Assembly (NCBI GenBank): GCA_937136395.1
Contig: CAKZOI010000010.1
Coordinates: 1 to 64,000 of the forward strand
Reading direction: 5' to 3'
Origin: an uncultured Opitutia bacterium
GTDB lineage: Bacteria > Verrucomicrobiota > Verrucomicrobiia > Opitutales > Coraliomargaritaceae
DNA length: 64,000 nucleotides
The notes beneath the pieces are model-generated. The model worked only from the letters and a program-made list of their open reading frames with translations. It was not told the DNA's origin and did no database searches. Both the position numbers and the translations under genes were made by a program. Of the stretch, positions 11,575 through 48,711 are shown one piece after another (position 1 is the first letter of the stretch; the number at the start of each line of letters is the position of its first letter).

Positions 11575-12759
11575 TTATGAGTTCCCCAACCGCTCTAACT
11601 GATAGGAACCATCCAAGATGGCTTCCCACCATTTAGAGTTGTTCAAATACCAGAGGACCGTTTTTCGAAAACCGGACTTAAAGTCTTCCTTCGGTTCCCA
11701 ACCAAGCTCATCTCGTATCTTACTTGCATCAATTGCATAGCGCATGTCGTGGCCGGGGCGATCTTTTACAAACGTTATGAGGGACTCATAGCTTTTGTTA
11801 GAAGGCAGAAGAGAGAAATCAGTAGTCAGATTCTTCTCAAGTTTCGCTTGGTATTCAGGAACCAGCTCATCCATCAACCGACAGAGCATCCTGACAAGTT
11901 CAATATTCTGACGCTCGTTGTTCCCGCCGATATTATAGGTTTCACCCTGTCGACCTTTTGTCAGAACAGTATACAATGCCTTTGCATGGTCAGTCACGTA
12001 TAGCCAATCGCGTATGTTTTCACCCTTACCATACACAGGGATCGATTCTCCCCGTAGGCATTTCAATATAACAACTGGAATCAGTTTTTCAGGAAATTGA
12101 TAGGGGCCGTAATTATTGGAGCAATTCGTCACCAAAACCGGCAAGCCATAAGTGTCTGCCCAAGCACGTGCTAAATGATCGGAAGCTGCTTTGGATGCAG
12201 AATAAGGGGAATGCGGATCGTATGATGTGGTTTCTGAAAAACCAGCAGCATCGGCTTCCAAAGAACCATAAACCTCATCAGTAGAAACATGTAAAAATCG
12301 GAATGCCGACTTCGTCGGCAATGACTGATGGCTAATGGCTGATGGCTGATCTGAAACAGCGGATACCAACGTAGCGGACGACACGGAGGTCGTCCCTCCA
12401 GTTGGAAGCGATCTCCAATACTCGAGTGCAGCTTGTAGGAGATTAAAGGTGCCGACCACATTGGATTGAATAAACTCACCTGGTCCATCAATCGAGCGGT
12501 CGACATGACTTTCGGCAGCAAGGTGCATGATCGAATCAGGTTGGTGAGCCTCCACGCATTCGCGCACCGCCTCGGCATCACAAAGATCCACCTGCTCAAA
12601 GGTATAGTTCGGATTATCCGTCAGATCGGACAAGGACTCTGGATTGCCCGCATAGGTTAGCTTATCTAAATTCACGACCGACACGCCCTTTTCAAGGACA
12701 AGTAGTCGTACGAGGTTGGATCCGATAAAGCCAGAACCGCCGGTGACCAGAATCCTCAT
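11575..12759 (-). CDS. rmlB: dTDP-glucose 4,6-dehydratase with a repeat-encoded insertion
   Basis: 394 residues; RmlB is usually about 330-360. [10 protein letters not shown] is the NAD loop, STDEVYG holds the catalytic Thr-Asp-Glu (about 160-162), YSASK the catalytic Tyr/Lys, and [30 protein letters not shown] and [11 protein letters not shown] are family signatures. It converts dTDP-glucose to dTDP-4-keto-6-deoxyglucose, the substrate for the sugar aminotransferase. Residues about 118-149, between YWRS and KSAFRF, are an extra segment of roughly 26-30 residues where E. coli RmlB has about six. Its DNA (12304-12401) is built from palindromic elements otherwise found in gaps. The frame and all catalytic residues are intact. 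Confidence 0.95.
12304..12401 (-). repeat. palindromic elements inserted in frame in rmlB
   Basis: On the coding strand the segment starts with TGGAGGGACGACCTCCGTGT then CGTCC, a TGGAGGG-stem-CTCCGT element with stem GGACGAC/GTCGTCC. A short tract of CAGCCAT/TAGCCAT repeats follows, then the palindrome TGCCGACGAAGTCGGCA at 12304-12320. The first element matches intergenic copies at 22453-22535 and 48414-48711. Confidence 0.85.
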
Positions 12760-22452: not shown

Positions 22453-22535
22453 CTGGAGGGCAATGCTCCGTCATTGCCGCGGAAACGCCTACATATTTCG
22501 AAGCATCGGCGGATGCGACGGAGCGCAACCCTCCA
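22453..22535. repeat. inverted pair of TGGAGGG-stem-CTCCGT elements
   Basis: Left arm CTGGAGGGCAATGCTCCGTC then ATTGCC (stem GGCAATG/CATTGCC). The right arm, on the minus strand, is TGGAGGGTTGCGCTCCGTCG then CATCC (stem GTTGCG/CGCATC, one mismatch). Both keep TGGAGGG and CTCCGT while the stem differs. The pair lies between kdsA and rsmD. Confidence 0.85.
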
Positions 22536-48413: not shown

Positions 48414-48496
48414 CTGGAGAGCGGCGCTCCGTCGCCGCCGATAGGCCTCAAACATCTGACCTCCATGCAGCGGTTGCGACAGAGCGCAACCCTCCA
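48414..48496. repeat. inverted pair of TGGAGGG/CTCCGT elements (1)
   Basis: Left: CTGGAGAGCGGCGCTCCGTC then GCCGCCG, stem GCGGCG/CGCCGC. Right, on the minus strand: TGGAGGGTTGCGCTCTGTCG then CAACCGC, stem GGTTGCG/CGCAACC. Loop CTCCGT or CTCTGT conserved. Confidence 0.85.
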
Positions 48497-48499
48497 GAT

Positions 48500-48620
48500 A
48501 TAAAGTGTTCCATGGACAATGTTCCACAAATACAAATAACGATTTAAAAAATTCATAAATCATTGATAAACAAACTATATAAATGTTCCACGGATATTGT
48601 TCCACAGTGAAGCAGAGCTT
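48500..48620. other. AT-rich gap with paired TGTTCCAC motifs
   Basis: No gene. Two similar stretches, GTGTTCCATGGACAATGTTC then CAC (about 48506-48528) and ATGTTCCACGGATATTGTTC then CAC (about 48582-48605), are separated by about 50 bases of AT-rich sequence. Each holds two direct TGTTCCAC repeats. Confidence 0.55.
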
Positions 48621-48626
48621 CTTTTT

Positions 48627-48711
48627 TGGAGGGCGGTGCTCCGTCACCGCCGCTGATACGCCCAAACAGTCGGATCTAAACGACGCGGTTGCGACGGTGC
48701 GCACCCCTGCA
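48627..48711. repeat. inverted pair of TGGAGGG/CTCCGT elements (2)
   Basis: Left: TGGAGGGCGGTGCTCCGTCA then CCGCC, stem GGCGGTG/CACCGCC. Right, on the minus strand: GGGTGCGCACCGTCGCAACC, a degenerate arm with stem TGCG/CGCA. Together with 48414-48496 the region between pdhC and the YkoF-like gene (461 bases) is built almost wholly from such elements and holds no gene. Confidence 0.8.

Follow-up and report, generated by a model that had tools for sequence, protein, structure and literature searches.

GGAG-footed hairpins with a fixed loop and covarying stems, probable REP-type elements associated with a cross-phylum clade of RAYT transposases

The stretch of DNA analysed here (the window; 64,000 nucleotides, contig C10 of G000) is part of a 3.18-Mb genome that is 99.96% complete. 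It contains a single hairpin inside rmlB, a hairpin doublet between kdsA and rsmD, and two further doublets near 48 kb. Their arms are as follows:

12376-12399, minus strand: single hairpin inside rmlB, GGAGGG-ACGAC-CTCCGT-GTCGT-CC, in frame and encoding about 10 residues of a variable loop
22455-22478, plus strand: arm B of the kdsA-rsmD doublet, GGAGGG-CAATG-CTCCGT-CATTG-CC, a pattern match; the congener G001 lacks the whole doublet
22511-22534, minus strand: arm A of the kdsA-rsmD doublet, GGAGGG-TTGCG-CTCCGT-CGCAT-CC, a pattern match with one stem mismatch
48416-48439, plus strand: arm B of the first 48-kb doublet, GGAG-AGCGGCG-CTCCGT-CGCCGCC, with AG instead of GG after the GGAG foot and the first stem pair replaced by A
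48472-48495, minus strand: arm A of the first 48-kb doublet, GGAGGG-TTGCG-CTCTGT-CGCAA-CC; G001 has the same arm in the same place
48628-48651, plus strand: arm B of the second 48-kb doublet, GGAGGG-CGGTG-CTCCGT-CACCG-CC; the site is empty in G001, G002 and G014
48687-48710, minus strand: arm A of the second 48-kb doublet, degenerate, with decayed stem and loop, recognised by eye and matched by no pattern

All copies named in the initial annotation are present at their places, including the degenerate and the mismatched arm. The hairpin in rmlB (11575-12759, minus strand) lies in an in-frame insert at codons ~117-155, together with a TGATGGC-like repeat and another palindrome, GCCGACTTCGTCGGC; rmlB orthologues vary at this protein loop, which is of low complexity in them. 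Between the two 48-kb doublets, two units of the form TGTTCCAY-N6-TGTTCCAC (48506-48527 and 48584-48605, 78 bp apart) flank an AT-rich stretch, and no other such unit occurs in the 3.18-Mb genome. In G001, G002 and G014 the corresponding intergenic region also holds similar paired TGTTCCAC sites. The half-sites resemble those of ParB (parS), but the units are direct repeats, and no GC-skew switch was seen at them.

The window holds five matches to the pattern GGAGGGN{4,12}CTCYGT where chance would give 0.07, and none of 100 shuffles contained as many as five. Genome-wide it gave 72 exact matches in nearly equal orientations (40/32), and a reversed control pattern gave none. A relaxed count of 75 genome copies with distinct context yielded the consensus (C)T-GGAG-GG-N5-CTCYGT-N5'-CC-GC, in which the loop, the foot and the two stem pairs next to it are near invariant and the five inner stem positions vary. 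A T at -1 before GGAG is partly forced by the search pattern; the C at -2, present before TGGAG in 46 of the 75 copies, is not. All seven base pairs are Watson-Crick in 55 of these copies, and six of seven in another 15.

The initial annotation had described a fixed loop and foot with covarying stems, and shuffle tests confirmed this both in the genome and across phyla. Among 32 distinct genome copies, 95.1% of the cells at the seven pairs are standard pairs, and 57 cells are doubly changed, compared with 17.7 in shuffles (0 of 500 as high). The covariation score of 0.693 fell to 0.228 upon shuffling (0/500) and to 0.05-0.30 in slid structures. All five variable pairs are Watson-Crick in 21 of 36 distinct genome copies, compared with 2.7 (maximum 8) after arm shuffling. 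Two stem classes, TTGCG and CGRTG with its relatives, dominate the genome. The stems are nonetheless neither random with respect to pairing nor reduced to two or three types inherited as blocks, and 12 different perfect stems occur among the 75 relaxed copies. A cross-genome pattern that left both N5 arms free collected 105 copies from loci of several phyla; in 82 of them all five pairs match, whereas 1000 shuffles averaged 5.6 such copies and never exceeded 14, and the perfect stems are of 33 different kinds. For 61 distinct cross-phylum sequences, 120 cells are doubly changed versus 31 and the score is 0.708 versus 0.134 (0/500), related copies inflating all these shuffling tests, a minor worry given the number of stem types and their spread across phyla.

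Covariation of this kind could be produced mainly by mutation instead of selection. Template switching at palindromes is well established, and quasi-palindrome correction during replication copies one arm from the other, so that any change is mirrored in a single step. Neighbouring stem types are indeed one mirrored step apart (CGGTG, CGATG, CAATG), and forms with a single mismatch exist, namely the 15 of 75 copies with six of seven pairs. As the main source of the compensated stems this explanation is unlikely, because it leaves the invariant foot and loop and the link to RAYT genes (below) unexplained; it is partial and compatible with a mobile element. Much less probable is that the hairpins work as RNA, as terminators, attenuators or mRNA-stabilising elements, with the covariation reflecting RNA structure. 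Perfect stems do lie in intergenic regions, and REPs can be co-opted for RNA roles. However, the two orientations are near equal, the hairpins form inverted doublets, one copy sits within the rmlB coding sequence, no run of T follows the stems, and no Rfam family was matched at gathering score. In addition, G-T pairs fill only 13 of 305 variable-pair cells in the 61 distinct cross-phylum sequences, a rarity that fits DNA hairpins more than RNA, and the hairpins flank a clade of DNA transposases in several phyla. Selection or mobility acting on a hairpin in either RNA or single-stranded DNA had been proposed initially; the hairpin and its mobility are upheld, and DNA is better supported than RNA.

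We then considered the arrangement of the copies. The inverted pairs of 83-85 bp noted initially have the right length, and among 24 neighbouring pairs in the genome the feet point outward in 19, inward in four and in tandem in one. Start-to-start distances of the outward pairs range from 55 to 107 bp, and near-identical doublets occur at many unlinked genome sites. With 19 of 24 pairs facing outward and the kdsA-rsmD doublet present or absent as a whole, two inverted REPs behave as one mobile unit, as in a REPIN. The two stems are unlike in 18 of the 19 outward doublets, 16 of which have one arm of the TTGCG type and one of a different class; same-class doublets number 3 against 9.4 expected (P=0.004, counting doublets as independent though they are copies of one another). 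Unlike-arm doublets recur in other genomes (for example CCACG/ACGCG, ACCAG/ACGAC and CGCCG/ACGAC), which is better evidence than the within-genome arm test. When doublets were folded as DNA from end to end, an identical-arm doublet reached -38 kcal/mol and unlike-arm doublets about -19 to -20 kcal/mol. Two local hairpins fold to -10 to -16 kcal/mol, so arm-to-arm pairing is favoured even in asymmetric doublets. These predicted energies only partly bear out the idea that unlike stems may guard against annealing between arms.

Presence or absence at orthologous sites in relatives supports the initial suggestion of REP-doublet-type mobility. In G000 a doublet (22455-22534) separates kdsA from rsmD. 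No doublet is present there in the congener G001, where the kdsA stop and the rsmD start are practically adjacent, and the kdsA-rsmD spacers of G010, G014 and G021 are short, different and devoid of it; the G002 site is unreadable owing to runs of N. Likewise, the second doublet at 48.6 kb is missing from the same site in G001, G002 and G014. The first 48-kb doublet (48416-48495) is shared with G001, somewhat decayed and with a different B-arm stem. That the elements are inert ancient repeats, inherited vertically without mobility, is the least probable reading and already largely refuted by this site polymorphism, as well as by the near-identical doublets at many unlinked places and the arrangement around RAYT genes, even though G000 and G001 share the first doublet at one site and no intact matching RAYT occurs in the window's own genome.

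A RAYT or Y1 transposase had been suspected initially and reported as missing from the window; none is there. In relatives, RAYT genes with CTCYGT hairpins within ~250 bp were found in four genomes: the congener G001, G040 (Desulfobacterales), G041 (Opitutia) and G049 (Lentisphaeria). The gene in G001 (contig C64) lies between two doublets that pair TTGCG with CGGTG or CGGCG, the window's own arm types. These four RAYTs form one clade (support 100/95). A protein profile built from them revealed further members at the same short distance from CTCYGT hairpins in G044, G046, G048, G057 and G067, as well as in G018, G056, G083, G103, G248 and G280 (on one side only and near contig ends in G018 and G248), so that a clade RAYT adjoins such hairpins in 15 genomes altogether. 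Other members adjoin GGAG-footed hairpins with the loops TTC(C), TCCN, GCC(T), TACY, TTTCAC, TTCCAC and CCAT. In loci fetched by way of the RAYT, with overlapping loci counted repeatedly, CTCYGT is the commonest six-base loop, and 78 of 83 paired CTCYGT hairpins have the foot GGAGGG, compared with two that have GTAG. A tree of 57 proteins places all GGAG-footed ones together (93/81 at the joining fork) and the GTAG-footed ones outside. Loop types change 12 times on this tree, in which many inner forks are weak, compared with 17.1 times under shuffled labels (0/200); as loops switched several times inside the clade, the coevolution of loop and protein is no more than moderately resolved.

The identity of the clade is clear. 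The RAYT protein scores 91 bits against NF047646 (REP_Tyr_transpos; cut-off 80), clade proteins also match Y1_Tnp, the nearest solved structure is E. coli TnpAREP (PDB 4er8), and the motifs are DHIH, WQ and YVxNNPVR. A protein of G040 (L244/L251, C123:4276-4749) reads KWDCV, with Cys replacing the usual Tyr of YVxxNPVR; ten hairpins flank its gene. Within the window's class, at least three hairpin copies occur in 17 of 237 genomes, and a close clade member is present in eight of these 17 compared with 17 of the other 220 (Fisher p=6e-5, genome kinship ignored). By record title, hosts of the element include Puniceicoccaceae, Opitutales, Pelagicoccus, Lentisphaerae and Kiritimatiellae, together with Planctomycetes, Desulfobacterales, Candidatus Fermentibacteria and Armatimonadetes. 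The highest count, 360 copies, was found in G038, a genome of 2.6 Mb.

Although the suspected transposase thus exists as a hairpin-flanked clade in the congener and in several phyla, the window's own genome has only an interrupted member. A PF01797 search yielded five Y1_Tnp genes in this genome, none flanked by CTCYGT hairpins. That search alone missed the interrupted clade genes of the own genome and of G002, both of which the RAYT-built profile found. The only close member in G000 (C25:25967-26437) is interrupted by TAG, and its flanking hairpins have a TTC loop; the G002 member is interrupted too. In the own genome, profile searches yielded no intact RAYT of the clade, and the hairpin-rich G038, G043, G054 and G058 gave no clade member. 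Short-read assemblies break at repeats such as those surrounding a RAYT gene, and contig ends do hold several of the clade genes. G137, a genome of the same order, is a single contig; it carries 23 dispersed copies, mostly single and nearly all with the stem ACGAC, which look like a decaying remnant population, and the clade gene is absent. Hairpins therefore clearly outlive their enzyme, and with no matching RAYT found in the window's genome, its copies may now be immobile remnants. Two other observations concern this genome. A second REP system (L060, G000:C39:88462-88737) consists of one of the five Y1_Tnp genes, a RAYT, with about ten flanking copies of GTAG-AAGCGACA-CTCY-TGTCGCTT, a hairpin that also surrounds a RAYT in G018 (L217). 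At L063 (G000:C70:57622), a Y1_Tnp-like domain and an AMP-ligase-like part share one frame of 638 aa in an apparently fused gene, with no hairpins nearby.

In all likelihood, then, the elements are of REP type, occurring as singles and as REPIN-like inverted doublets, and are spread by one clade of TnpAREP/RAYT single-strand HUH transposases. They are multi-copy hairpins with a 5' tetranucleotide foot, and in relatives the same element flanks a RAYT of family NF047646. We propose that each arm would fold into a 7-bp hairpin in single-stranded DNA. The transposase would read the loop (here CTCYGT) and would need a paired stem but not a given stem sequence. The 5' GGAG foot would direct the cut to the CT that often stands before it, and the different stems usual in the two arms of a doublet may weaken annealing between them. 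If the loop is read and pairing alone is needed, stem letters could drift freely while complementary, with foot, first two pairs and loop fixed. In group-3 TnpAREP, loop bases are essential and a stem mismatch is harmful, whereas swapping stem bases for their complements matters little or moderately; the foot selects the cut site, and feet ending in AG are associated with a cut at CT (PMC8266576). This biochemistry predicts a fixed foot and loop with a paired but free stem. The GGAG foot retains AG, and CT precedes the foot in most copies. A foot-loop pseudoknot (GGAG with CTCC) was also considered as a general rule and dropped, because clade members with GCC, CCAT or TTTCAC loops lack such complementarity.

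REPs have been defined by a GT(A/G)G foot (PMC2817692) and by GTAG and CGTC (PMC3733652). A 2018 survey (PMC6006769), which also reports CnGA and atypical exceptions, looked for a GTAG/GTGG foot and a loop of 2-5 bases; under these rules the GGAG elements would have been missed. Surveys bound to GTAG/GTGG and short loops thus overlook elements that are widespread and reach 360 copies in a genome. There is about an even chance of a wider picture, in which GGAG-footed REPs would be a third REP superfamily, spanning phyla and served by a RAYT clade of its own; the transposase would take its address from the hairpin loop only, the foot would fix the cut, and the stem would be a free spacer diversified between arms against annealing. 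If so, each switch of loop inside the clade would indicate that transposase specificity had changed. On RAYT-REP coevolution, one comparative biochemical study has dealt with three pairs. The clade offers a natural series in which the GGAG foot stays the same, loops come in about eight types and free stems in dozens, each beside its transposase. This series spans cultured and uncultured bacteria. The claim of loop as address and stem as spacer is directly testable in it by loop swaps.

Finally, we compared the elements with known systems. Like GTAG/GTGG REPs and REPtrons (Nunvar 2010, PMC2817692; Di Nocera 2013, PMC3733652), they are short hairpins with a 5' tetranucleotide foot and many intergenic copies, they form inverted doublets, and their RAYT is flanked by its own REPs. 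By contrast, their foot is GGAG instead of the GT(A/G)G of that superfamily, the loop has six bases, and the hosts are mainly PVC phyla, Desulfobacterales and others. With group 3 or subclass 2.5 TnpAREP of Stenotrophomonas and Marinomonas (PMC8266576) they share a perfect stem and the motifs DHxH, WQ and Y(V/I)xxNP, and loop-dependent recognition with largely exchangeable stem letters has been measured there; foot and loop differ. These motifs, set against Table 1 of PMC6006769, suggest that the clade belongs to subclass 2.5. Palindromes that are likewise present in many copies and lack a GTAG foot include the CGTC-tagged ones (PMC3733652) and the CnGA elements of class 3 (PMC6006769), but their feet, stems and loops are different, as is the Tyr motif of class 3 proteins. 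Pseudomonas fluorescens REPINs (PMC3116915) and REP classes (PMC3686654) also form inverted doublets, although here the RAYT clade is a different one and 18 of 19 doublets have unlike arms. As Pseudomonas REP classes keep foot and loop constant with compensated stems between classes (PMC3686654, Table 1), a covarying stem with fixed foot and loop is no new principle. The initial annotation knew of no published description of this exact pattern; the architecture is known (PMC3686654, PMC8266576). In the REP literature searched, comprising sources other than subscription papers and preprints, there is no mention of a GGAG foot of this kind; this foot, the six-base loop and the cross-phylum clade appear undescribed in that literature, and the element appears to be a new branch of the known REP/REPIN type.
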